DNA of 40,490 bases from Algoriphagus sp. (GTDB lineage Bacteria; Bacteroidota; Bacteroidia; Cytophagales; Cyclobacteriaceae): positions 1 to 40,490 of the forward strand of contig JANQWS010000095.1 of NCBI GenBank assembly GCA_030729785.1, given 5' to 3'. The notes under the pieces were generated by a model. The model searched no databases, was not told the DNA's origin, and saw only the letters and a program-made list of their open reading frames with translations. The stretch's first letter is position 1. Every line of letters begins with the position of its first letter. A program made the position numbers and the translations under genes. Positions 16,259-28,821 of the stretch are shown in pieces.

Positions 16259-17065
16259 TTACAAGCTTGCTTCAAAAACAGAATGGGTGGAGGGCCAGCT
16301 AGGTAGTATGGGTTTTTGATCAAACAATCCGAAAATACTAGATCCGGATCCTGACATAGAAGCATAAAAAGCTCCAGATTGGTAGAGTTTGGATTTTATG
16401 GCAGCCAACTCAGGATGGGCAAGAAATACAGAGGGTTCAAAGTCGTTGACCAATTCTTCTTTCCAACGGCCACGATCTGCTAAAATAGTCTCAAGTTTGG
16501 TTTCAGGAGTCTTGGGGACCACCCCAGCATAGGCCTCTTGGGTGCTCACATGGATTCCTGGATGAATCAGCACGAGGTAGGATCCTTGAAGGGATAGTGA
16601 AATTGGTTCAAGAATTTCACCTCTCCCACGAATAATTTTAGGAGTGTTTTCAATGAAAAAAGGACAATCACTCCCCAGTTCTGCAGCATATTCCTCTAAG
16701 AAGAAATCATCCAAGTGTAAATCAAAAAGGTTATTCATCAGCTTGAGCGCAAATGCACCATCGGCCGACCCTCCTCCCAGTCCTGCTCCCATTGGGATGT
16801 GCTTGTGTAGGTGGATTTGTAAATTGGGCAACCCCTGAAAATCTTTTTTAAGTAGCTTTTCCGCTTTCAAAATCAGGTTGTCCTTGGGATCTCCCGGCAC
16901 CGGTAATCCAGTAGCGGTCCAAGTGCTGTTTTTGTCCACAATCATTTCTAATGCATCGTAGAGCGGGATAGGAACCATACAGGACTCTAGGTCGTGGTAG
17001 CCATCTTTCCGCTTTTTGAGAACCTGAAGTCCGAGGTTGATCTTGGCGTTGGGAAAAGTAATCAT
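16259..17065 (-). CDS. ispE: 4-diphosphocytidyl-2-C-methyl-D-erythritol kinase
   Basis: A 268-residue GHMP kinase of the non-mevalonate isoprenoid pathway; it phosphorylates CDP-methylerythritol with ATP in the cytoplasm. The N-terminus PNAKINLGLQVLKKRKDGYH is the IspE signature (K8). The GHMP glycine-rich loop is PMGAGLGGGSADGA (91-104), GSDCPFF carries the catalytic Asp near 133, and the C-terminal motif is MSGSGSSIFG. I chose the ATG at 17065. An upstream in-frame extension to 17137 adds 24 hydrophobic residues that are not part of the family. A perfect -7 box lies about 16 bp upstream. It is transcribed divergently from the ilv operon. Confidence 0.95.
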   Translation of the reverse strand: MITFPNAKINLGLQVLKKRKDGYHDLESCMVPIPLYDALEMIVDKNSTWTATGLPVPGDPKDNLILKAEKLLKKDFQGLPNLQIHLHKHIPMGAGLGGGSADGAFALKLMNNLFDLHLDDFFLEEYAAELGSDCPFFIENTPKIIRGRGEILEPISLSLQGSYLVLIHPGIHVSTQEAYAGVVPKTPETKLETILADRGRWKEELVNDFEPSVFLAHPELAAIKSKLYQSGAFYASMSGSGSSIFGLFDQKPILPSWPSTHSVFEASL

Positions 17066-17080
17066 GGGCAACAATTTCAA

Positions 17081-17088
17081 CAAAAGTA
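17081..17088 (-). promoter_or_regulatory. Bacteroidota-type -7 box for ispE
   Basis: On the minus strand this reads TACTTTTG, a full match to TAnnTTTG, about 16 bp before the ispE ATG chosen here. If real, transcription would start close to or after the longer upstream start codon at 17137. This supports the shorter protein. Confidence 0.45.
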
Positions 17089-17402
17089 AGGGAAAAGAGG
17101 ATAGAATTAGTGTGTATTGATTTTTTAAAAACACCAATCAATCACTCTTTTTATTGTCATTTATCTGACTTATTATGCTGTTTATTATTGGAAACACGAA
17201 TGGAATTCAAAAAAATTGAAAAAAATAAAAATCAGTAGAATATTTTGATAAAGTTCGTGAATCGGGCAAATTTCAAAGATTCAAATTTGTGGATGGTTTA
17301 ATTTCAAAATTAAAGTCTGTAAATATAGATTTTACCCAATTTTTAACACTGAACTAGCCATTCCAAGAAGAATTAAATATTGTAAGTCTCGCTCCAGATA
17401 AT
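17089..17402. other. AT-rich divergent intergenic region between ispE and the ilv leader
   Basis: More than 300 bases without a credible gene. The stretch is strongly AT-rich (for example 17204-17260) and presumably carries the upstream control sites of the branched-chain operon. No clear inverted repeat or known riboswitch was recognised. Confidence 0.5.
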
Positions 17403-17410
17403 TAGTATTG
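17380..17410 (+). promoter_or_regulatory. Possible promoter of the ilv-leu operon leader
   Basis: TTG (17380-17382), a 20-bp spacer and TAGTATTG (17403-17410, one mismatch to TAnnTTTG) fit the spacing of the phylum's -33/-7 promoter. Transcription would start near 17415, about 35 nt before the leader peptide ATG. This is a motif-level guess. Confidence 0.35.
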
Positions 17411-17448
17411 CATAGTGATTCAATCCTGTGACCTCATTCCACTAGCTC

Positions 17449-17508
17449 ATGATTTACGCCTTGTTGCTTCCCCTGCGATTTAGCATTCTCCTTTCAATTT
17501 CCAAGTGA
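17449..17508 (+). CDS. Leader peptide of the ilv-leu operon (attenuation control)
   Basis: A 19-codon ORF, ATG 17449 to TGA 17506-17508, encoding MIYALLLPLRFSILLSISK. Six codons are Leu (17461, 17464, 17467, 17473, 17488, 17491) and three are Ile (17452, 17485, 17497), so 9 of 19 residues are end products of the operon downstream. The stop codon overlaps the 5' arm of a predicted antiterminator (17507-17522). A strong terminator follows 34 bp later and ilvD starts 12 bp after that. This is the layout of classical ribosome-mediated attenuation. No Shine-Dalgarno is evident before the ATG, as is common in this phylum. Its translation is inferred, not shown. Confidence 0.75.
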   Translation: MIYALLLPLRFSILLSISK

Positions 17509-17552
17509 GGCACAAGTTTATAGCGATATTCCTATACCTTATAAAGTGCCTC
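17507..17552 (+). promoter_or_regulatory. Predicted antiterminator hairpin of the ilv-leu leader
   Basis: GAGGCAC (17507-17513) pairs with GTGCCTC (17546-17552) and TTTATA (17517-17522) pairs with TATAAA (17540-17545). This makes 13 base pairs with a three-base AAG bulge. The 3' arm uses the same bases as the 5' arm of the terminator (17543-17552), so the two hairpins exclude each other. A ribosome at the leader stop codon would cover the 5' arm; one stalled at Leu codons would leave it free. Confidence 0.75.
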
Positions 17553-17574
17553 CAATTACAGAGGCACTTTTTTT
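17543..17574 (+). terminator. Attenuator terminator in front of ilvD
   Basis: A perfect 10-bp stem, AAAGTGCCTC (17543-17552) with GAGGCACTTT (17561-17570), has an 8-nt loop and is followed by Ts. It lies upstream of the first structural gene with its ATG only 12 bp further on. It can only act as a conditional stop for the operon's own transcript. Confidence 0.88.
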
Positions 17575-17586
17575 ATTTAAAATACA

Positions 17587-19275
17587 ATGGCCCAAAATCC
17601 ACTTAAAAAGCACAGTTGGGAAATAAGTGATAACCCTGAGCATCCAGCAGGAATGGCGATGCTGTATGCCACAGGCATGTCCGACAAAAAAATGAAGCAA
17701 CCCTTTGTTGGGATTGCTAGTTGCGGTTACGAAAGTAATCCCTGCAACATGCACCTCAATGACTTTGCTGCACATATCAAGGCATCCTCCCAAGAGGAAG
17801 AGCTGACCGGATTGGTATTTAATACAATAGGAATTTCTGATGGCACTTCCATGGGGACCTTGGGAATGCGCTATTCCCTTGTTTCGCGGGAAATAATCGC
17901 AGACTCCATCGAATCCTTTGTGCTAGGGCATTCTTTCGATGGGTGTATAGCCGTAGCTGGATGTGATAAAAATATGCCTGGTGCCATCATCGGAATGCTT
18001 CGAATCAATCGCCCTAGCATCATGGTGTATGGAGGTACCATTGCCTCAGGCCTCTACAAAGGGGAAAAGTTAAATATTGTCTCTGCATTTGAAGCATTTG
18101 GCAAAAAAATCCAAGGAACCATTACCCCAGAGGATTACGATGGGGTGATCCGAAATGCATGTCCTGGCGCAGGAGCCTGTGGGGGCATGTATACTGCCAA
18201 TACGATGTCTTCAGCCATTGAAGCTTTGGGCATGTCCTTGCCCTATTCAGCTTCCAATCCAGCTAATTCCCCTGAAAAATTACGGGAATGCCGGGAGGTG
18301 AATCATTACCTACGTATCTTATTGGAGATGGATTTGAAACCCAAGGACATCGTTACTCGAAAAAGTATTGAAAATGCAGTTCGGGTAGCTATTGCCCTCG
18401 GCGGTAGCACCAATGCTGTGCTCCATTTATTGGCGATTGCTCGGACAGCAGGGGTAGCATTTACCCTTCAAGATTTTAGAGAGCTCAATGGAAAGACCCC
18501 GATGGTCGGGGACTTTAAGCCTTCAGGCAAATTTCTAATGGAAGACTTGCACGAGCAGGGAGGTCTTCCAGCTTTCATGAAATACTTTTTAGAGCATGGA
18601 TACCTTCATGGAGATTGTCTTACTGTAACTGGCAAGACCTTAGCCGAAAATTTGGAAAAGGTAGAGGCGCTTATTCCTTCCAAAGTAAATGTGATCCATC
18701 CGGTAGAGACTCCAATCAAAAATACCGGTCACCTATGTATCCTAGAAGGCAACTTAGCTCCCGAAGGAGCTGTAGCTAAAATTACAGGCAAAGAAGGAAG
18801 GCTTTTTACTGGGCCAGCACGAGTATTCGATTCCGAGTTGGATGCCAACAATGCTATTCGTGACCATCAGGTCAAAGCCGGGGATGTAGTAGTCATCCGA
18901 AACGTGGGTCCAAAAGGAGCCCCAGGAATGCCAGAGATGCTCAAGCCAACCTCCATGATTATCGGGGCCGGGTTGGGTGCAGATGTTGCTCTTATTACAG
19001 ACGGACGCTTTTCGGGAGGTACACACGGGTTTGTGGTAGGTCATGTGACCCCAGAAGCTTGGTGTGGTGGGCCTATCGGCTTGCTCGTGGATGGTGATGT
19101 CATTACGATAGATACAGATAGCCAAGGGCTGCATGTGGCCGTCTCCGAAGAGGAGTTTGCAGTACGAAAATCCACTTGGATGCCCAAGTCTATTGAAGGA
19201 TTGCAAGGAACACTAAAAAAATACAATCGATTGGTGGCTACTGCCTCCGAAGGATGTGTTACCGATAAATTTTAA
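17587..19275 (+). CDS. ilvD: Dihydroxy-acid dehydratase
   Basis: A 562-residue protein of the usual length. It dehydrates 2,3-dihydroxy-3-methylbutanoate and 2,3-dihydroxy-3-methylpentanoate to the 2-keto acid precursors of Val/Leu and Ile. The iron-sulfur ligands and hallmarks are CGYESNPC (C46), AGCDKNMPG (C126) and [19 protein letters not shown] (C192, C198). The C-terminus has [24 protein letters not shown]. It is the first structural gene after the attenuator. Its stop lies 4 bp before the ilvB ATG. It is cytoplasmic and probably oxygen-sensitive through its Fe-S cluster. Confidence 0.97.
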
Positions 19276-19279
19276 TTCC

Positions 19280-20971
19280 ATGGAAACTAAAATGAGAGGT
19301 GCAGATATTGTCGTTCGTTCGTTGATTGCCGAACAGGCGGAGTTAATTTTTGGATATCCTGGAGGCGCAATTATGCCAGTATACGATGCGCTCTACGACT
19401 ACCACGACCAAATCAAACATGTGCTTACACGCCATGAACAAGGAGCGATCCATGCCGCTCAAGGCTATGCGCGTATCTCAGGGAAGGTAGGGGTTTGCTT
19501 GGCTACCTCTGGCCCTGGAGCAACGAATTTGATTACAGGATTGGCAGATGCACAGATTGATAGTACTCCTTTGGTATGCATCACTGGTCAAGTTGCGGCA
19601 CATTTACTAGGCACAGATGCCTTTCAAGAAACGGACATGATGGGAATTTCTATGCCGGCTACCAAATGGAATATTCAGGTAAGGCATGTGGAAGATATTG
19701 CTCCTGCAATTGCCAAGGGATTTTTTATTGCGCGCTCCGGTAGACCGGGGGCAGTACTCATTGACATTACCAAAAATGCACAAGTGGATTTCGGGGAGTT
19801 TAATTACCAGCCCTGCCAGGAGTTTAGGTCTTATGTGACCAAACGACCTATTTCTGTCCCAGCCCTGCAAGAAGCAGCAGCACTCATAAACAGTGCAAGC
19901 CGCCCGTATGTATTGTTTGGTCAAGGGGTGATTTTAGGGAAAGCAGAAGGGGAATTAAAAGATTTTCTGGATAAATCAGGCATTCCTGCGGCATCTACTT
20001 TATTGGGTTCCGGGGCGCTTTCCGAAGATCATCCTAGCTATGTGGGGAAATTAGGCATGCATGGCAACTATGCCCCCAATTTGCTGACCAACCAATGCGA
20101 TGTATTGATAGCAGTCGGCATGCGATTTGATGACCGTGTGACGGGAGACCTTTCGCGTTATGCCAAGCAAGCCAAAATCATTCATCTAGAGCTTGATCCT
20201 GCTGAAATTAACAAAAATGTCAAGGCCACAGTGGCAGTATTGGGAGATTGTAAAGATAGCCTGACCCAATTAACAGCTGTAATTTCTGCGAAGACCTATC
20301 CGGATTGGATGGCCAAATTTCGAACTTTGGAGCTTCAAGAAAAAGAGGCTGTGGTCCAACACGATCTTACTCCTACCAAGGTGGGTTTGACCATGGGAGA
20401 GGTAATTCACATCATCAATCGTTACAAAGCAGACGATGCAGTCTTGGTTACAGATGTAGGACAGCATCAAATGATTGCTTGGAGGTACTATAATTACAAA
20501 AAAACACGGACTCAAGTGACTTCTGGTGGCCTTGGAACCATGGGTTTTGCCCTGCCTGCAGCGCTTGGAGCTCAACTTCACGACTATTCCCGTCAGGTGA
20601 TTTGTGTGGTGGGAGATGGAGGAATTCAAATGACCATTCAAGAGCTGGGAACCATTATGCAAACCAAAGCTCCCGTTAAAATTGTTTTGCTCAACAACAA
20701 TTATTTGGGAATGGTACGCCAATGGCAGCAAATGTTTTTTGACAAACGCTATTCCTTTACGGAATTAGATAATCCTGATTTTATCAAGCTTGCGGAAGCA
20801 TACGGAATCAAAGCCCAAAAAGTGGGAGAGCGGGGCGATCTTCAAGAAGCCATTGAAGACATGCTGATTCACGACGGCCCTTATTTTCTCGAAGTGGTAG
20901 TTGAGAAAGAAGACAATGTCTTTCCTATGATCGCTACTGGTTGCTCCGTAGAAGAAGTTCGACTACACTAA
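19280..20971 (+). CDS. ilvB: Acetolactate synthase, large catalytic subunit
   Basis: A 563-residue thiamine-diphosphate enzyme that condenses pyruvate with pyruvate or 2-oxobutyrate, the first common step to Val/Leu and Ile. Family marks are EQAELIFGYPGGAIMPVYDAL, the catalytic Glu in RHEQGAIHAAQGYAR, GKVGVCLATSGPGATNLITGLADA, and the C-terminal ThDP motif GDGGIQMTIQELGTIMQTKAPVKIVLLNN. I chose the ATG at 19280; an in-frame extension to 19256 runs into ilvD. It is followed 9 bp later by the regulatory subunit. Confidence 0.97.
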   Translation: METKMRGADIVVRSLIAEQAELIFGYPGGAIMPVYDALYDYHDQIKHVLTRHEQGAIHAAQGYARISGKVGVCLATSGPGATNLITGLADAQIDSTPLVCITGQVAAHLLGTDAFQETDMMGISMPATKWNIQVRHVEDIAPAIAKGFFIARSGRPGAVLIDITKNAQVDFGEFNYQPCQEFRSYVTKRPISVPALQEAAALINSASRPYVLFGQGVILGKAEGELKDFLDKSGIPAASTLLGSGALSEDHPSYVGKLGMHGNYAPNLLTNQCDVLIAVGMRFDDRVTGDLSRYAKQAKIIHLELDPAEINKNVKATVAVLGDCKDSLTQLTAVISAKTYPDWMAKFRTLELQEKEAVVQHDLTPTKVGLTMGEVIHIINRYKADDAVLVTDVGQHQMIAWRYYNYKKTRTQVTSGGLGTMGFALPAALGAQLHDYSRQVICVVGDGGIQMTIQELGTIMQTKAPVKIVLLNNNYLGMVRQWQQMFFDKRYSFTELDNPDFIKLAEAYGIKAQKVGERGDLQEAIEDMLIHDGPYFLEVVVEKEDNVFPMIATGCSVEEVRLH

Positions 20972-20980
20972 ATTGACCCT

Positions 20981-21481
20981 ATGAAACGCTATACCATATT
21001 TGTCATCACTGAAAATTTTATTGGGTTACTCAACCGGATCACGATAATTTTTACACGAAGAGGGATTAATATCGACGCGCTCACTGCTTCTGAAAGTCGA
21101 ATTCCAGGAGTACACCGCATCACCATTGAAGTGACGGTTACCGAAGAAACGGTCATTCAACTAGTCAATCAAATCGAAAAAATAATCGATGTCATCAAAG
21201 CCTTCCACCACGAAGATTCTGGAGTAGTTTACCAAGAACTGGCACTTTACAAACTTCCAGTTTCTCGTCTTGACGGAGGGTTGGAGAAAATTATACGAGA
21301 ACATCATGCCAAGATAATTGCGGCAGAACAAGACTTTGTGGTCTTGGAATTAACCGGTCATAAAGAAAAAACGAGAGAACTTTTGGAACTCCTCAAAGAC
21401 TACGGAATCCTCGAATTTGCTCGTTCCGGTAGGGTAGCAGTTGCCAAACGCATGTTGACCATCGATTCATTTGTGAACTAA
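20981..21481 (+). CDS. ilvN: Acetolactate synthase, small regulatory subunit
   Basis: A 166-residue protein. The N-terminal ACT domain (YTIFVITENFIGLLNRITIIFTRRGINIDALTAS) is typical of IlvN/IlvH and would bind valine to mediate feedback inhibition of IlvB. The C-terminal half (about 80-160), with ELALYKL and LELTGHKEKTRELLELLKDYGILEFARSGRVAV, is the second regulatory domain. Its position directly after ilvB supports the call. It could equally be named ilvH. Confidence 0.95.
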   Translation: MKRYTIFVITENFIGLLNRITIIFTRRGINIDALTASESRIPGVHRITIEVTVTEETVIQLVNQIEKIIDVIKAFHHEDSGVVYQELALYKLPVSRLDGGLEKIIREHHAKIIAAEQDFVVLELTGHKEKTRELLELLKDYGILEFARSGRVAVAKRMLTIDSFVN

Positions 21482-21517: not shown

Positions 21518-22561
21518 ATGAAATTGAAATTTGGAAACGTTGAAGAAAACGTAGTAACTAGAGAGGAATTTCCTCTAGAAAAAGCAAGAGAAGTCTTAAA
21601 AGACGAAGTGATTGCAGTCATAGGATACGGGGTGCAAGGCCCAGGTCAAGCGCTTAATCTTCGAGACAATGGCTTTAAGGTGATTGTAGGGCAGCGAAGC
21701 GGCTCTAAAACTTGGGATAAAGCCATTGCCGATGGTTGGGTACCAGGTGAAACTCTGTTTGAAATTGAAGAAGCCTGCTCTCGTGGGACAATTCTCCAAT
21801 TTTTGCTTTCAGATGCCGGTCAAATCACCTTGTGGCCTACCTTGAAAAAACACTTAACTCCTGGTAAGGCCCTTTATTTCTCCCATGGGTTTGGAATCAC
21901 GTACAAAGAGAAAACCGGAATTATTCCTCCCCCAGATGTAGATGTGATCTTGGTTGCTCCAAAAGGTTCAGGTACCTCTCTACGAAGAATGTTTGTCGAA
22001 GGGAGAGGTTTAAATTCTTCCTATGCAATTTACCAAGATGGCACAGGCAGAGCCAAGGAGCGCGTAGTGGCTCTTGGTATTGGTGTGGGTTCGGGCTACC
22101 TGTTTGAAACCGACTTCTACCGAGAGGTGACTTCAGATTTGACTGGCGAGCGTGGCACCCTTATGGGAGCAATTCAAGGTATTTTTGCTGCTCAATACGA
22201 GGTGCTTCGTGCGAATGGACATACCCCTTCTGAAGCGTTCAACGAGACCGTAGAAGAATTGACCCAATCCCTGATGCCACTGGTAGCTGAAAATGGAATG
22301 GATTGGATGTATGCCAACTGCTCTACGACTGCACAGCGAGGGGCTTTGGATTGGTGGAAGCCTTTCCGAGATGCGACTAAGCCTGTATTTGAAGCGCTTT
22401 ATGCGTCTGTAAAATCAGGAGCTGAGGCTCAAAAATCAATTGATTCGAACTCTAAGGCAGATTACAGAGAAAAACTTGAGGCCGAATTGGCACAACTTCG
22501 TGATTCTGAAATGTGGCAAGCAGGCGCAGTTGTACGCAAATTGAGACCAGAAAATAATTAA
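21518..22561 (+). CDS. ilvC: Ketol-acid reductoisomerase (NADP+)
   Basis: A 347-residue protein. It isomerises and reduces 2-acetolactate or 2-aceto-2-hydroxybutyrate. The N-terminal Rossmann loop is VIGYGVQGPGQALNLRDNG, followed by VIVGQRSGSKTWDKA, which includes the residues that usually bind the NADPH phosphate. The C-terminal knotted domain carries FETDFYREVTSDLTGERGTLMG, the metal-binding Asp/Glu site. The sequence departs from the common short class I form (for example PKGSGTSLRRMFVEGRGLNSS), a variant I associate with Bacteroidota. It starts 36 bp after ilvN. Confidence 0.95.
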   Translation: MKLKFGNVEENVVTREEFPLEKAREVLKDEVIAVIGYGVQGPGQALNLRDNGFKVIVGQRSGSKTWDKAIADGWVPGETLFEIEEACSRGTILQFLLSDAGQITLWPTLKKHLTPGKALYFSHGFGITYKEKTGIIPPPDVDVILVAPKGSGTSLRRMFVEGRGLNSSYAIYQDGTGRAKERVVALGIGVGSGYLFETDFYREVTSDLTGERGTLMGAIQGIFAAQYEVLRANGHTPSEAFNETVEELTQSLMPLVAENGMDWMYANCSTTAQRGALDWWKPFRDATKPVFEALYASVKSGAEAQKSIDSNSKADYREKLEAELAQLRDSEMWQAGAVVRKLRPENN

Positions 22562-22582: not shown

Positions 22583-24091
22583 ATGAGTGAAAAGCTATGG
22601 ATATTTGATACCACGCTTCGAGATGGAGAGCAAGTGCCAGGATGTCAACTCAACACCCAAGAGAAAATCATCGTTGCAAAAGCGCTGGAAGAACTTGGTG
22701 TGGATATCATAGAGGCTGGTTTTCCAATTTCTAGCCCAGGAGATTTTTCCTCCGTGGTGGAAATATCAAAAGCCGTTTCTAATCCAATCATTTGTGCCCT
22801 ATCGCGGGCCGTAGAAAAGGACATTGAAGTAGCCGGAGCAGCACTTCAATACGCCAAAAAAGGCCGAATTCATACAGGAATAGGTGTTTCACCTTACCAT
22901 ATTCAATACAAGCTTCGAACTACGCCTGAGGATATTATCAGACGCGGGGTAGCGGCAGTTAAGTTTGCCAAGCGATTTGTAGAAGATGTTGAGTTTTATG
23001 CGGAAGATGCCGGTCGCGCAGAAGCTGATTTCTTGTGCAAAATAATTGAAGAGGTAATCAAAGCAGGTGCTACCGTAGTGAACATTCCTGATACGACGGG
23101 TTATTGCCTACCCGAACAATACGGAGCTATTATTTCTGGCTTGAAAAACCGGGTTCCTAATATTGATAAGGCCATCATTGCTACCCATTGCCACAACGAC
23201 CTAGGCATGGCAACTGCCAATACGGTGGCGGGTGTACAGCAAGGAGCTCGCCAAGTGGAAGTGACTATCAATGGAATCGGAGAGCGTGCCGGCAATACCT
23301 CATTGGAAGAAGTGGTAATGGCAATCAAATGTCATCAATCTATCCCCGTGTATACGGATATTGTGACTCCGAAAATTTACCATACCAGCCGCCTGGTATC
23401 CAAATTAATGAACATGCCTGTGCAGCCCAACAAAGCGATTGTGGGAAGAAATGCATTTGCACATTCTTCGGGTATCCATCAAGATGGGGTACTGAAGCAT
23501 CGAGAAAATTACGAGATCATGGACCCCAAGGATGTGGGCGTTGCAGAATCTACGATTGTACTAACTGCCAGGTCTGGAAGAGCAGCACTCAAGCATCATC
23601 TGGATGCCTTAGGGGTGGAGCTAGAAGGAGAAGCCTTGCGAGAAGTATACGAAGCTTTTTTAGTGCTTGCAGATTCCAAACGGGATATCGGAAGAAAAGA
23701 CCTATTGGAACTGGTTGGTAAATTCATCGATGAATCCAACTTTATCGAGTTGGACCAGGTCCACTACTCCTCGGATGGCGAAGCAACAGCTCAAGTAACC
23801 CTCAAAGTAGGCAATGCACTTCAAAATGCCACGTCTACTGGCGTAGGTCCAGTGGACGCCGTTCTCAAGGCTATAGAATCTATTGTACAGCCTCAAGTGG
23901 AGCTAGAGGAGTTTCTTATCCAAGCTATCACCCAAGGAAGCGACGATGTGGCCAAGGTGCACATGCGTCTCATTAAGTCTGACAAACCCTATTATGGGTT
24001 TGCATCCAACCAAGACATTGTACTCGCTTCTGCACAAGCATTTGTGGACGCACTTAACAAAATTCCAGTCAAAGAATATGCGACTGCCTAA
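22583..24091 (+). CDS. leuA: 2-Isopropylmalate synthase
   Basis: A 502-residue enzyme joining 2-ketoisovalerate and acetyl-CoA, the committed step to leucine. The TIM-barrel part has [51 protein letters not shown] and [17 protein letters not shown]. The following segment reads [18 protein letters not shown]. The C-terminal regulatory domain (about 390-500), where leucine binds in the family, is present ([31 protein letters not shown]). It lies 21 bp after ilvC. It is one of two related synthases in the operon and is the one matching canonical LeuA. Confidence 0.96.
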
Positions 24092-24093
24092 TT

Positions 24094-25500
24094 ATGGAAA
24101 AGACCACCTTATTTGATAAAATCTGGGATGCACACGTAGTTAAATCCGTGCCCGCTGGTCCTGATGTATTTTTCATCGACAAGCATTTCATCCACGAAGT
24201 GACCTCTCCAGTTGCCTTCCTCAATTTGGAAAAAAGAGGAATTGGGGTGAAATATCCTCACCGTACCATCGCAACCCCGGATCACAATGTGCCAACAGTT
24301 GATCAAGATCAAACCATCAAAGACAAGCTTTCCCGAATGCAAGTGGAAAGGCTTCGACAGAATTGTGCGAAATACGGTATAGAATTGCATGACTTGGGAT
24401 CGGCTCACCATGGGATCGTCCATGTGATTGGTCCTGAGTTGGGAGTAACTCAGCCCGGAATGACAATCGTTTGTGGGGACTCCCACACCTCCACCCACGG
24501 TGCCTTTGGCGCCATCGCCTTTGGTATTGGAACTTCCGAAGTAGAGATGGTACTCGCTACCCAATGCATCATGCAATCCAAGGCTAAGAAAATGCGAATT
24601 TCTGTAGAGGGTACTCTTGGCAAAGGCGTTACTTCCAAAGATATTATTCTGTACATCATCTCGAAGATATCTGCCGCAGGAGCCACAGGTTACTTTGTGG
24701 AATATGCAGGTTCAGCAATCCAAAGCTTATCCATGGAAGCCCGAATGACAATTTGCAACATGTCCATCGAGATGGGTGCACGCGGGGGGCTAATTGCCCC
24801 AGATGAAACTACCTTTGCCTATTTGAAAGGAAAAGAATATGCTCCGAAAGGGGAAGCATGGGATCAGGCCGTTGCACATTGGAAAACTTTAAAAACAGAC
24901 GATGGGGCTATTTTTGACAAAGAATTGGTCTTTGAAGCGGCAGACATAGAACCCATGATTACCTATGGAACCAATCCAGGGATGGGAATCAAAGTAAATG
25001 GGAATATTCCAAGTACCCAAGGGATGGAAGGTTCCAACAAGACTTCCTACCTCAAATCCCTAGAATACATGGGTTTTGCTCCCGGGGAACCTATTCTAGG
25101 AAAATCAGTAGACTATGTTTTTGTAGGCTCCTGCACCAACGGAAGAATTGAAGATATCCGCGCTGTGGCTCAATTTGTAAAAGGACATAAAAAAGCTGAT
25201 TCCATAACCGCATGGATTGTCCCAGGTTCTCGAGAAGTGGAAAAACAAGCTCAATCAGAAGGCTTGGTAGCTATTTTGGAGGAAGCAGGTTTTGAACTTC
25301 GGCAACCAGGATGCTCAGCTTGTCTTGCGATGAATGACGACAAAATCCCTGCAGGCAAATATGCGGTTTCTACATCCAACCGAAACTTTGAAGGACGTCA
25401 AGGTCCTGGAGCCCGTACCATGCTTGCCTCTCCCTTGACCGTAGCGGCAGTAGCGATTACTGGTCGAATTACAGATCCACGGGAAGTATTTCAGAATTGA
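24094..25500 (+). CDS. leuC: 3-Isopropylmalate dehydratase, large subunit
   Basis: A 468-residue aconitase-family protein binding a 4Fe-4S cluster. Hallmarks are [45 protein letters not shown] (first cluster Cys) and [14 protein letters not shown] (the other two Cys), then [21 protein letters not shown]. With LeuD it isomerises 2-isopropylmalate, and probably also (R)-citramalate supplied by the CimA-like enzyme downstream. It starts 2 bp after leuA. Confidence 0.97.
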
Positions 25501-25536: not shown

Positions 25537-25604
25537 CAAAATTTATGGACTGCGGGGAAAAGACTACCCGAAGTTCTATTTGACCAACTTTGAACCAAAA
25601 AAAA

Positions 25605-26195
25605 ATGGCTTACGATAAATTTACCATTCTACAGAGTACAGCAGTACCCCTTTCTACAGAGAATGTGGATACAGATCAAATTATACCTGCACGCTTTTTG
25701 AAGGCCACAGAGCGGGAAGGCTTCGGTGACAACTTGTTTCGCGATTGGAGATACGACTCGGCAGGTACTCCAAAAGCTGATTTCGTACTCAATGATCCCA
25801 CTTACAGTGGAAAAATTTTGGTAGCAGGCAAAAATTTTGGGTCTGGTTCGAGTCGAGAACATGCTGTTTGGGCCTTGTACGACTATGGATTTCGTTGCGT
25901 AGTATCCAGCTTTTTTGCTGATATATTTAAAAATAACTGCCTAAATATTGGTGTGCTCCCAGTAACGGTTACCCCAGCCTTTGCAGAGAAATTGTTTGCC
26001 GCGATAGCAGCAGACCCCCAAACAGAAGTAGAAGTGAATTTGCCTCAGCAAACAATCACCCTACTCGCTACAGGGGATGCGGAGTCCTTTGATATCAACG
26101 AATACAAAAAGGACAATATGCAACATGGTTTTGATGACATCGATTACCTCATCAATATTGCTCCAGAAATAGAGGCTTTTGCCGGTAATAGGTAA
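25605..26195 (+). CDS. leuD: 3-Isopropylmalate dehydratase, small subunit
   Basis: A 196-residue swivel-domain protein of normal length. Hallmarks are STENVDTDQIIPARFLK near the N-terminus and GKNFGSGSSREHAVWALYDYGFR near the middle, with the substrate-binding GSGSSREHA loop. I chose the ATG at 25605; an in-frame TTG at 25590 is less likely. It pairs with LeuC. The 104-bp gap before it holds the CAGG palindrome. It ends 10 bp before the citramalate synthase gene. Confidence 0.96.
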   Translation: MAYDKFTILQSTAVPLSTENVDTDQIIPARFLKATEREGFGDNLFRDWRYDSAGTPKADFVLNDPTYSGKILVAGKNFGSGSSREHAVWALYDYGFRCVVSSFFADIFKNNCLNIGVLPVTVTPAFAEKLFAAIAADPQTEVEVNLPQQTITLLATGDAESFDINEYKKDNMQHGFDDIDYLINIAPEIEAFAGNR

Positions 26196-26205
26196 GTTTT
26201 TAAGC

Positions 26206-27744
26206 ATGGAAGCACGAAGATTGGAACTAATGGATACTACCTTGAGGGATGGAGAACAGACCTCAGGGGTGTCTTTTTTGCCTTCAGAAAAGCTTCACCT
26301 TGCCAAGGCCCTCTTAGAAGATTTAAAGGTAGATCGGATCGAGGTAGCTTCTGCACGAGTTTCCCCAGGCGAATTGGAAGGAGTGCAACGGATTACCCAA
26401 TGGGCTGCTCAGAAAGGATTCCTTGATCGAGTAGAGGTTCTTGGATTTGTGGACACCCCCATTTCAGTAGACTGGATTGTGGAGGCCGGTGCTCGAGTGC
26501 TCAACTTACTTACCAAAGGATCGCTCAATCATCTGGTACACCAACTGAAGAAAACTCCAGAGGAGCATTTTTCTGAAATTCGTCAAAGTATTTCCTATGC
26601 ACGATCAAAAGGTCTTCAAGTCAATGTCTACCTAGAAGACTGGTCCAATGGAATGCGCAATTCTCCAAACTATACGCTTCGCTTAATCGAAATGCTTGCC
26701 GAGCAACCTATTCAACGCGTGATGCTTCCGGATACGTTGGGGATTCTTTCTCCTTTGGAGGTACGTAGTTTTTTGGGAGAGGTTTTCTCCAAATTCCCTG
26801 ACTTACGATTTGATTTCCATGGACACAACGACTACGATCTAGCGATAGCCAATGTTCTTGAAGCCGTGCTTCAAGGGGTATCAGGCATTCACAGTACAAT
26901 CAATGGACTTGGAGAACGAGCAGGAAATGCTCCTTTGGAATCAGTAGTTGCGGTGATTAAGGATTTTACGGATTTGAAAATCGGCGTCCAGGAACAAAAG
27001 ATCTTTCGGGTATCCAAGTTGGTGGAACAATTTTCAGGGCAATACATTCCTGCCAACAAACCTGTAGTAGGTGAAAATGTATTTACTCAAACAGCCGGTA
27101 TTCATGCCGATGGAGATCAAAAAAAGAGTTTGTACTTCAACCAATTGCTTCCAGAGCGCTTTGGTAGAGAACGAAAATATGCACTTGGCAAAACCTCAGG
27201 AAAAGCCAATATTTCAAAGAATTTAGAGGCTTTGGGCATATCCTTGGAGCCGGATGAACTGGCTCGCGTAACGCAGCGCATCATTGAGTTGGGAGATAAA
27301 AAAGAGCGAGTAACAACAGAAGACTTGCCCTATATCATTTCAGATGTGTTACAAAATAACTCGTTTGCTAAAAATATTAGTATTGATGGCTATCAAATGA
27401 CCCATTCCAAAGGGTTGCGGCCTTCGGTACAGTTACGATTAAAAGTACACAATAGCTTTCATGATGCTACAGCCACCGGCGATGGGCAATACGACTCGTT
27501 CATGAAAGCCTTGAGTGCGATTTATAGCTCCCTAAAAAAGGACTTACCCAAATTAGTTGATTACCACGTGACTATTCCTCCTGGAGGGAAAACGGATGCT
27601 TTGGTAGAGACGGTGATTACCTGGGAGTATGGAAGACGATTCAAAACCAAAGGATTGGATCCAGATCAAACTGTAGCAGCCATGATGGCTACGGAGAAAA
27701 TGTTGAATATCATGGACAATCACCCAATGGAAATACATTCTTAA
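26206..27744 (+). CDS. cimA: Probable (R)-citramalate synthase (CimA, Leptospira type)
   Basis: A 512-residue member of the isopropylmalate/homocitrate/citramalate synthase family. The N-terminus has [20 protein letters not shown] and VDRIEVASARVSPGELE. Later motifs are NVYLEDWSNGMRNSPNY, FDFHGHNDYDLAIANVLEA, INGLGERAGNAPLESV, VFTQTAGIHADGDQKKSLY, PERFGRERKYALGKTSGKA and a C-terminal regulatory domain ending DQTVAAMMATEKMLN. These agree closely, as I recall it, with the characterised Leptospira interrogans citramalate synthase, and differ from canonical LeuA upstream. The enzyme would join pyruvate and acetyl-CoA; LeuCD and LeuB would then give 2-oxobutyrate for isoleucine. The operon contains no threonine deaminase gene, which fits. 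The alternative is a second isopropylmalate synthase. I chose the ATG at 26206 over an upstream TTG inside leuD. Confidence 0.82.
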   Translation: MEARRLELMDTTLRDGEQTSGVSFLPSEKLHLAKALLEDLKVDRIEVASARVSPGELEGVQRITQWAAQKGFLDRVEVLGFVDTPISVDWIVEAGARVLNLLTKGSLNHLVHQLKKTPEEHFSEIRQSISYARSKGLQVNVYLEDWSNGMRNSPNYTLRLIEMLAEQPIQRVMLPDTLGILSPLEVRSFLGEVFSKFPDLRFDFHGHNDYDLAIANVLEAVLQGVSGIHSTINGLGERAGNAPLESVVAVIKDFTDLKIGVQEQKIFRVSKLVEQFSGQYIPANKPVVGENVFTQTAGIHADGDQKKSLYFNQLLPERFGRERKYALGKTSGKANISKNLEALGISLEPDELARVTQRIIELGDKKERVTTEDLPYIISDVLQNNSFAKNISIDGYQMTHSKGLRPSVQLRLKVHNSFHDATATGDGQYDSFMKALSAIYSSLKKDLPKLVDYHVTIPPGGKTDALVETVITWEYGRRFKTKGLDPDQTVAAMMATEKMLNIMDNHPMEIHS

Positions 27745-27753
27745 TTTCATACT

Positions 27754-28821
27754 ATGGAAATGAAAATAGCGCTCCTGCCTGGCGATGGCATTGGGCCCGA
27801 AGTAATTGCACAGGCAGTAAAAGTGGTTGAAGCAATTGGAAAAAAGTTTGGCCACCACATCACCTTTCAAAAGGGTTTGGTGGGGGCATGTGCGATTGAT
27901 GCTACAGGCGATCCCTATCCAGATGCTACGCACGAGATCTGTGCGGCATCAGATGCAGTTCTTTTTGGAGCAATTGGTGACCCCAAATACGACAACGACC
28001 CCAAGGCCAAGGTGCGCCCTGAGCAAGGCTTGCTACGCATGCGACAAAAGTTAGGATTGTTTGCCAATGTTCGCCCTACCTTTACCTTTCCTTCTTTAGT
28101 CCACAAATCCCCCCTCAAGTTAGACCGAGTGGATGGAGTAGATTTAGTTTTTTTTAGGGAACTGACAGGAGGTATCTATTTCGGTGAGCCGAGAGGAAGA
28201 AATGAGCAAGGGACAAAAGCCTTTGACACCAATGTCTACAGCAAGGAGGAAATTGTACGTTTGGCAAGAATGGGTTTCGAAGCTGCTCAAAAGCGGAGAA
28301 AACTGCTGACCTGCGTGGACAAGGCAAACGTGATGGCCACTTCCAGATTGTGGAGAGAAACGGTCCAAGAATTAGCTTCTGAGTATCCAGATGTAAAAGT
28401 AGAGTATGAATTTGTGGATGCAGTAGCCATGCGATTGATTCAATGGCCCAAGGCCTACGATGTGTTGATTACTGAAAATCTTTTTGGGGATATTTTGACC
28501 GACGAGGCCTCGGTAATCTCTGGATCTATGGGCCTGATGCCTTCGGCCTCCTTGGGAGCCAAGGTGAAGCTATTCGAACCGATTCACGGTTCGTATCCGC
28601 AAGCGGCTGGCAAGGATATAGCCAATCCACTGGGAACAATTTTATCTGCTTCCATGATGTTTGATTATGCATTTGGATTGACAGCTGAGGCCAAATTGAT
28701 CAGCGACGTAGTCAATCTTTCGCTCGCCGAAGGAATCGTCACCGAAGACATCGCCGAAGGAGGGAAAGCCTACAAAACCTCCGAATTAGGAGACTGGCTA
28801 GCAGCAAAAATTCTGAGTTAA
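27754..28821 (+). CDS. leuB: 3-Isopropylmalate dehydrogenase
   Basis: A 355-residue NAD-dependent beta-decarboxylating dehydrogenase of normal length. Hallmarks are IALLPGDGIGPEV at the start, FFRELTGGIYFGEPRG (substrate loop), VDKANVMATSRLWRETV, TENLFGDILTDEASVISGSMGLMPSASLG (metal-binding aspartates) and FEPIHGSYPQAAGKDIANPLGTILSASMM. It acts on 3-isopropylmalate for leucine and probably on 3-methylmalate for the CimA route. It is the last gene of the operon and is followed by a strong terminator. Confidence 0.97.
   Translation: MEMKIALLPGDGIGPEVIAQAVKVVEAIGKKFGHHITFQKGLVGACAIDATGDPYPDATHEICAASDAVLFGAIGDPKYDNDPKAKVRPEQGLLRMRQKLGLFANVRPTFTFPSLVHKSPLKLDRVDGVDLVFFRELTGGIYFGEPRGRNEQGTKAFDTNVYSKEEIVRLARMGFEAAQKRRKLLTCVDKANVMATSRLWRETVQELASEYPDVKVEYEFVDAVAMRLIQWPKAYDVLITENLFGDILTDEASVISGSMGLMPSASLGAKVKLFEPIHGSYPQAAGKDIANPLGTILSASMMFDYAFGLTAEAKLISDVVNLSLAEGIVTEDIAEGGKAYKTSELGDWLAAKILS

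Follow-up and report, generated by a model that had tools for sequence, protein, structure and literature searches.

Our analysis covered a window of 40,490 nucleotides from Algoriphagus sp. (genome G000, contig C95), a draft genome the IlvD of which is 93% identical to that of its closest relative among named records, an uncultured Algoriphagus (L001). The window holds a run of nine ilv and leu genes (Table 1), as stated in a first-pass annotation of the same DNA. Eight of these pass the cut-offs of specific NCBIfam models and one, a cimA-like gene, is named by best hit, with no listed NCBIfam model reaching its cut-off. The location of the cimA-like gene between leuD and leuB suggests that isoleucine is made via citramalate. 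The true start of ilvB may be downstream of the listed GTG. A 5S rRNA gene lies further away at 199-310. The element described here sits between the divergent ispE gene (16259-17137, minus strand) and ilvD, and 78 nt separate the stop codon of its leader from ilvD. A candidate promoter was called at 17380-17410 with TTTG-N19..21-TAnnTTTG, which we take to be the Bacteroidota promoter consensus, and transcription would start near 17415. By eye, TTG 20 nt ahead of TAAGTTTG or TAATATTG also occurs in four other loci (L111, L112, L114, L115), and TAAGTTTG, TAATATTG or TACTATTG was seen, uncounted, at the equivalent position in many relatives.

Table 1. Features of the ilv-leu locus in the window.
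Feature	Positions	Strand	Evidence
-33-like element TTG, Bacteroidota-type promoter (putative)	17380..17382	+	20 nt upstream of -7-like element
-7-like element TAGTATTG, TAnnTTTG with one mismatch (putative)	17403..17410	+	position relative to -33-like element
Leader peptide ORF MIYALLLPLRFSILLSISK, 19 codons, TGA stop overlapping region 2	17449..17508	+	ORF; found in 45/45 leaders
Region 1, anti-antiterminator arm, Leu5-Leu7 codons, U17464 bulged	17460..17470	+	10 bp with 17507-17516; covariation in relatives
Region 2, antiterminator 5' arm GAGGCACAAGTTTATA, begins within leader stop codon	17507..17522	+	pairing with region 3
Region 3, shared arm TATAAAGTGCCTC, antiterminator 3' arm	17540..17552	+	pairs with regions 2 and 4
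Terminator 5' arm AAAGTGCCTC, part of region 3	17543..17552	+	pairs with region 4
Region 4 GAGGCACTTT (17561-17570), then U tract to 17574	17561..17574	+	terminator 3' arm
ilvD, dihydroxy-acid dehydratase	17587..19275	+	NCBIfam TIGR00110 above cut-off
ilvB, acetolactate synthase large subunit	19256..20971	+	TIGR00118 above cut-off
ilvH/ilvN, acetolactate synthase small subunit	20981..21481	+	TIGR00119 above cut-off
ilvC, ketol-acid reductoisomerase	21518..22561	+	TIGR00465 above cut-off
leuA, 2-isopropylmalate synthase	22583..24091	+	TIGR00973 above cut-off
leuC, 3-isopropylmalate dehydratase large subunit	24094..25500	+	TIGR00170 above cut-off
leuD, 3-isopropylmalate dehydratase small subunit	25590..26195	+	TIGR00171 above cut-off
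cimA-like, (R)-citramalate synthase (isoleucine precursor)	26179..27744	+	NF042433 as best hit (690 bits; cut-off 950)
leuB, 3-isopropylmalate dehydrogenase	27754..28821	+	TIGR00169 above cut-off

The first-pass annotation had proposed a leader ORF, a terminator and an alternative hairpin ahead of ilvD, and all three were found as described. The ORF contains six Leu, three Ile and no Val codons, so that branched-chain amino acid (BCAA) codons make up 9/19, against 22.5% of the 9220 codons in the 20 ORFs of the window. The terminator consists of AAAGTGCCTC, an 8-nt loop and GAGGCACTTT, a perfect stem of 10 bp (-14.4 kcal/mol) with TTTT after it. The alternative hairpin, or antiterminator, starts within the leader stop codon and uses the 5' arm of the terminator. 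At its base GAGGCAC (17507-17513) is paired with GTGCCTC (17546-17552) over 7 bp, and after a 3-nt AAG bulge TTTATA (17517-17522) is paired with TATAAA (17540-17545), giving 13 bp and -11.5 kcal/mol as drawn; the best fold of 17506-17553 retains the 7-bp base and has -13.6 kcal/mol. A pairing between regions 1 and 2 had been noted as a weak hairpin of 5 bp, which understates it: 17460-17463 and 17465-17470 pair with 17507-17516 in a helix of 10 bp with one bulged U (-11.8 kcal/mol; 0.013 against codon shuffles), and the 1:2 pairing covaries in relatives. In dinucleotide shuffles of 17380-17586 a terminator score of at least 14 (observed 14.2) was reached in 1/5000, and such a terminator together with a BCAA-rich leader in 0/5000. 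Eight terminators in the window score at least 12 (three on the plus, five on the minus strand), and a BCAA-rich ORF precedes only this one. The fold of 191 nt has a z-score of -2.5, with 3/200 shuffles equally good.

To follow the element through the family Cyclobacteriaceae, 50 regions upstream of ilvD were gathered, 14 from titled loci (L001-L014; Algoriphagus, Belliella, Aquiflexum, Mongoliibacter, Cognataquiflexum, Litoribacter and Echinicola) and 36 from same-genus genomes including the window's own. After five duplicates had been dropped, 45 distinct leaders remained, among them that of the window. Conservation of a Leu/Ile-rich mini-ORF and of the hairpins in relatives had been set as a test in the first-pass annotation, and the anatomy recurs in every one of the 45: each has a terminator and an ATG leader ORF, and each leader stop codon begins 2-8 nt ahead of the AGGC/GGGC of region 2. 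The stop is fused to region 2 (2 nt before AGGC) in 25/45, with TGA in 22 and TAA in three cases, begins 5 nt before AGGC in 1/45 and 7 or 8 nt before it in 19/45. The last run of Ile, Leu or Val (ILV) codons ends 13-14 nt before AGGC in 40/45, the exceptions being L008, L012, L083, L087 and L113. Leaders of relatives typically read MYKVVILLSLIILIGC or MYPLVVLLSFIILIGFSK; Val is present in 36/45 and absent in nine, namely the window's leader, seven more that have the same RFSIL core, and L012. The earlier suggestion that leucine and isoleucine form the signal thus suits the window's leader, which lacks Val, but not the group, for which the typical signal predicted from the codons is Val, Leu and Ile together.

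A search with a covariance model (R1, threshold E 0.001) in 196 genomes of the family, representing 84 genera, gave matches in 53 genomes and 23 genera, or 21 genera once two genomes with chance matches are removed; the other 143 genomes had no match at this threshold. Of the matching genomes 48 were fetched for inspection of the neighbourhood, G179, G194, G209, G222 and G230 being left out, and ilvD was downstream in 46. The two without a nearby ilv-leu gene (L170 in G145 and L172 in G203, each the sole R1 match of its genome) were taken as chance and inflate the R1 tally by two genomes and two genera. Four weak matches in the order but outside the family (L153-L156 in G040, G352, G413 and G430), as well as L157, L168 and L171, were likewise taken as chance, with no ilv-leu homologue in the stretch.

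No Rfam leader family matched the element at gathering score or fitted it at E up to 10, and the only match at gathering score in the whole window was the 5S rRNA. Leader-type scores stayed below gathering (Phe_leader 16.1 bits, cut-off 55; ylbH 12.9 bits, cut-off 50), and the lowest E-value, 0.026, belonged to a microRNA family (19.8 bits, cut-off 49.5). This bears on the idea that the element is a riboswitch or T-box, sensing a metabolite or a tRNA, and that the mini-ORF is a by-product, an idea with which alternative terminator and antiterminator hairpins, taken alone, are equally compatible. However, no known Rfam model of a riboswitch or T-box matched at the element, what is conserved is an ORF containing Ile, Leu and Val codons at a near-constant distance from region 2, and the 25-34 nt between arms 2 and 3 (44 of 45 leaders measured) leave little room for a ligand pocket. 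We consider a sensing RNA of this kind extremely improbable.

Pairing was then assessed in an alignment of the 45 leader rows (A1), the relatedness of which inflates covariation numbers. The terminator is paired in 94.9% of cells and has two doubly changed pairs, a number that 27/500 shuffles reach. The antiterminator is paired in 88.6% of cells (289/500 shuffles as high), and its covariation is no better than in shuffles (337/500 as high), because its arms hardly vary within A1. Covariation of both hairpins, which the first-pass annotation had named as a check, was seen for the terminator and, as regards the antiterminator, in more divergent genera but not above shuffles within A1. By duplex energy, the 2:3 pairing of the antiterminator stands at 0.05 or less in 43/45 leaders. 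The 1:2 helix of A1 has five pairs, joining leader codons 4-5 with GACTA next to region 2, is paired in 82.7% of cells and has 14 doubly changed cells against 2.1 in shuffles (1/500 as high) and three doubly changed pairs (36/500 as high); the window's own 1:2 helix uses a different register. Among 65 leaders, rows that are related and in part near-identical, the best 1:2 duplex has a mean of -10.8 kcal/mol against -8.1 for codon shuffles, with 14/65 at 0.05 or less and 44/65 at 0.2. A clear 1:2 helix is missing from some leaders, for example L088, L091, L092 and L126.

The weaker true R1 matches include four genera (g40, g53, g56 and g89; an example leader is MFSIVSIISLVVILIQKR). Region 3 reads GCTTC in these divergent genera, in 8/90 rows of a leader table in which at least eight rows repeat another, and GCCTC elsewhere. 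Its changed position faces A in region 2 in 8/8 rows (GAAGC, once GGAGC) and A in region 4 in 7/8, the eighth keeping G and forming G.U, while the remaining 82/90 rows are without GCTTC and have G as the region 2 partner in all 80 that were read. Region 1 is also shifted in the divergent genera, with GTTCAGC paired to GCTGAAC over 7 bp in L158, L160, L161 and L166. That one arm is paired with two others is as expected of mutually exclusive hairpins, and we regard this concerted change of three arms in eight divergent leaders as the strongest evidence that alignments offer for mutually exclusive pairing. It may go back to one or a few evolutionary events, and it is the divergent genera that lend covariation support to 2:3. 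The same observations speak to the reading that a plain intrinsic terminator or insulator precedes ilvD and that mini-ORF and alternative hairpin are there by accident; the terminator is indeed strong, and region 2, a near copy of region 4, might under this reading be a fortuitous repeat. The ispE gene points away, so the terminator does not belong to it, the mini-ORF is found in 45/45 leaders at near-constant spacing to region 2, and the three arms change together, all of which leaves a plain terminator very unlikely.

The geometry of an attenuator was modelled with an assumed ribosome footprint of -15 to +15 around the P-site and with nascent RNA up to 17556. Under this model 2:3 of the window forms with a probability of 0.99-1.0 when the ribosome sits on any one of codons 1-17, and with a probability of 0 when it occupies Ser18, Lys19 or the stop codon. 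This bears out, within the model, two further proposals of the first-pass annotation, that a ribosome stalled up to 17493 frees the antiterminator arm and that one at the stop codon hides it; a modelled stop-codon ribosome blocks 2:3 in 45/45 leaders. Across the 45 leaders 385/389 of the Ile, Leu and Val codons lie at or before the modelled switch codon, which in 44/45 falls on the last ILV run or beyond it. Mean energies of the three pairings differ little, at -14.0 (1:2), -14.3 (2:3) and -14.9 kcal/mol (3:4). In an equilibrium model the 3:4 terminator wins at every ribosome position once region 4 has been made, stalled positions included, and the switch must therefore be kinetic and set by the order of synthesis. 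In the window model, RNA made up to 17556 adopts 2:3 entirely, and not 1:2, when no ribosome is present, which makes termination without translation doubtful in this species.

From the parts, conservation, covariation and geometry obtained by computation we infer promoter use, leader translation, termination, kinetic order and the response to amino acids. With high confidence, though on sequence and modelling, we interpret the element as a classical three-hairpin attenuator through which the ribosome would control transcription of the whole ilv-leu operon. RNA polymerase would start near 17415 and a ribosome would enter the 19-codon leader. With charged Leu- and Ile-tRNA plentiful, the ribosome would get to the stop codon and mask region 2 (17507-17522) with its footprint, leaving region 3 free to pair with region 4, and transcription would end near 17574. 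If Leu or Ile is scarce, the ribosome would stall at a control codon (Leu5-7, Leu9, Ile13-Leu14-Leu15, perhaps Ile17) and hold region 1 off region 2, so that the free region 2 could form 2:3 ahead of the synthesis of region 4 and polymerase would read through into all nine genes. On an untranslated leader 1:2 could form first and favour termination.

Outside the family, 66 more ilvD loci (L015-L080, by title mostly from Flavobacteriia) were scanned for a strong terminator after an ATG ORF with at least seven ILV residues in nine. Of 76 terminators on the forward strand, 39 (in 26 loci) qualified, compared with none of 62 on the reverse strand, and each of eight other residue sets gave none. 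At six in nine the scan returned 47 forward and two reverse cases in 33 loci. The long ORF that comes next is ilvE-like (290-301 aa) in 17 of these loci and ilvD (556-586 aa) in 15, with none found in L018; all five ilvE-like ORFs that were tested are branched-chain aminotransferases by best hit. These Ile/Val leaders before ilvE or ilvD are the predicted counterparts of the window's attenuator elsewhere in the phylum Bacteroidota. Complementarity of region 2 goes beyond shuffles in 19/39 leaders at 0.05 and 31/39 at 0.2, compared with 43/45 at 0.05 in Cyclobacteriaceae; some leaders hence need better modelling, the first of L055 above all. Judged by duplex energy, region 2 is not clear in, among others, L032 leader 2, L047, L051 leader 2, L055 leader 1 and L078. 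The last of these, a Saprospiraceae ilvD locus (L078:1128-1159), carries one long Ile/Val leader, MNIFSIVIISIIISVVVNDPQWGKCY, and its terminator is unrelated. L042 is titled Candidatus Rokubacteria; its IlvD is 62% identical to the window's, within the Bacteroidota range, and the title is perhaps a binning error.

Thirteen loci (L019, L020, L032, L040, L044, L049, L051, L055, L058, L059, L072, L076 and L077) carry two consecutive leaders, each followed by a terminator of its own, ahead of an ilvE-like or ilvD gene, and the second ATG comes 15-31 nt after the arm of the first terminator. By title they belong to Chryseobacterium (5), Flavobacterium (3), Tenacibaculum (2), Bizionia (1), Aquimarina (1) and an Ignavibacteriae MAG (1). 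The tandem leaders are Ile/Val-rich, apart from the first leader of L055, which is Leu-rich and doubtful. Leaders of unlike sequence (65 Cyclobacteriaceae rows and 26 other loci) also strongly favour GTC, CTC and ATT, compared with the codon usage of the genes themselves. Counted over leader rows that are related, GTC makes up 72% of 112 Val codons in Cyclobacteriaceae leaders versus 13% in window genes and CTC 35% of 229 Leu codons versus 14%; in the other Bacteroidota loci the figures are 44% of 100 versus 8% for GTC and 17% of 53 versus 3% for CTC. Pairing of 1:2 may explain part of the preference in Cyclobacteriaceae. Leader codon bias is discussed in terms of selective tRNA charging in PMC1183508. 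We lean towards the view that ribosome-mediated attenuation is a main control of BCAA synthesis across much of Bacteroidota and that many members, chiefly Flavobacteriia, stack two complete Ile/Val attenuators, the second starting 15-31 nt past the arm of the first terminator, as two gates for a like signal with a steeper or wider response. Leaders of both groups would then favour the otherwise uncommon GTC and CTC as if to use tRNAs whose charging falls first.

A further leader, MKTNANNYWWWHSKTFLGKAQKAVA, with three consecutive Trp codons, lies in the window genome immediately ahead of a trpE-like gene (L227, G000:C61). Its strong terminator is found some 860 nt into the reversed locus, and the element is likely a Trp attenuator judging from its codons and position. 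The trpE-like gene of this one genome was checked and has TIGR00564 as its best NCBIfam hit, below cut-off. A three-Trp leader with a terminator lies near trpE-like genes in 11/11 same-genus genomes (G000-G010) and in G039, and was not found near those of G036-G038. Scans of about 1500 nt on either side returned no histidine leaders near hisG in 13 loci and no Thr/Ile leaders near aspartate kinases in 30 loci. The Trp leaders help to weigh a translation-dependent leader of another sort, one that mainly reports whether translation proceeds and has little amino-acid specificity. A 1:2 hairpin that terminates without translation would agree with such a sensor, as would the breadth of the codon set, which comprises Leu, Ile and, among relatives, Val. 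Against it, BCAA codons dominate the leaders of BCAA genes and Trp codons stand before trpE, so that the codons match the product, and a general sensor of translation seems to us most improbable.

In Escherichia coli and Salmonella, ilvGMEDA, ilvBN and leu have BCAA-rich leader peptides and 1:2, 2:3 and 3:4 hairpins. Judged by anatomy and logic, the window's element is a classical leader-peptide attenuator with the defining features that a sequence allows one to test, and it shares with these systems the BCAA-rich leader, the three hairpins and the control of a BCAA operon. It differs from them in matching no Rfam leader family at gathering score, in the fusion of region 2 to the stop codon, and in that one attenuator stands before a joint ilv and leu operon with a citramalate-synthase-like gene. 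The attenuators of ilvGMEDA, ilvBN and leu are named in PMC1183508. Corynebacterium glutamicum ilvBNC, with terminator, antiterminator and anti-antiterminator hairpins supported by mutation, likewise has a short leader (MTIIRLVVVTARRLP) and the same three hairpin types, in a different phylum and operon, and its terminator and antiterminator overlap in a trinucleotide, compared with an arm of 7 or more nt here (PMC11857589). Staphylococcus aureus ilv also has a Leu-rich leader ahead of BCAA genes, and its attenuator peptide is described as working beside the regulator CodY (PMC5794164). The tandem attenuators of Salmonella mgtCBR comprise two leader ORFs in series, comparable to the Ile/Val tandems, and belong to a Mg2+ transport and virulence operon, whereas tandem leaders of Bacteroidota share one codon class (PMC3641672). 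Small ORFs reminiscent of leader peptides are reported from Bacteroides thetaiotaomicron (PMC7366714), and short leader genes of Bacteroidetes that lie 11-14 bp before genes, against 78 nt from leader stop to ilvD here, are counted as a matter of reinitiation (PMC4833913). A 2010 survey, apart from the Firmicutes case that it reports itself, knew leader peptides from Proteobacteria and Actinobacteria alone (PMC2965389). The first-pass annotation had spoken of Proteobacterial logic in a different phylum; the logic holds, but Actinobacteria and Firmicutes have also yielded descriptions of leader peptides. Among the matches listed for Bacteroidota leader peptides, attenuators and tandem attenuators (including the best 15 of 825, 20 of 32 and 15 of 77), with subscription papers mostly outside, we found no description of this attenuator. 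The survey of Vitreschak et al. 2004 (FEMS) is said to mention attenuators in Bacteroidetes/Chlorobi, and we therefore claim no priority.

Ribosome-mediated attenuation is an already known kind of mechanism, and the tandem arrays are the most novel lead. The element would give Bacteroidota, for which the 2010 survey knew no such case (PMC2965389), a well-supported amino-acid attenuator. It predicts how the nine-gene pathway would be controlled in Algoriphagus and its kin, and the alignment and covariance model are usable for annotation. With tandem attenuators for the same signal, the question why cells stack two switches becomes directly testable.
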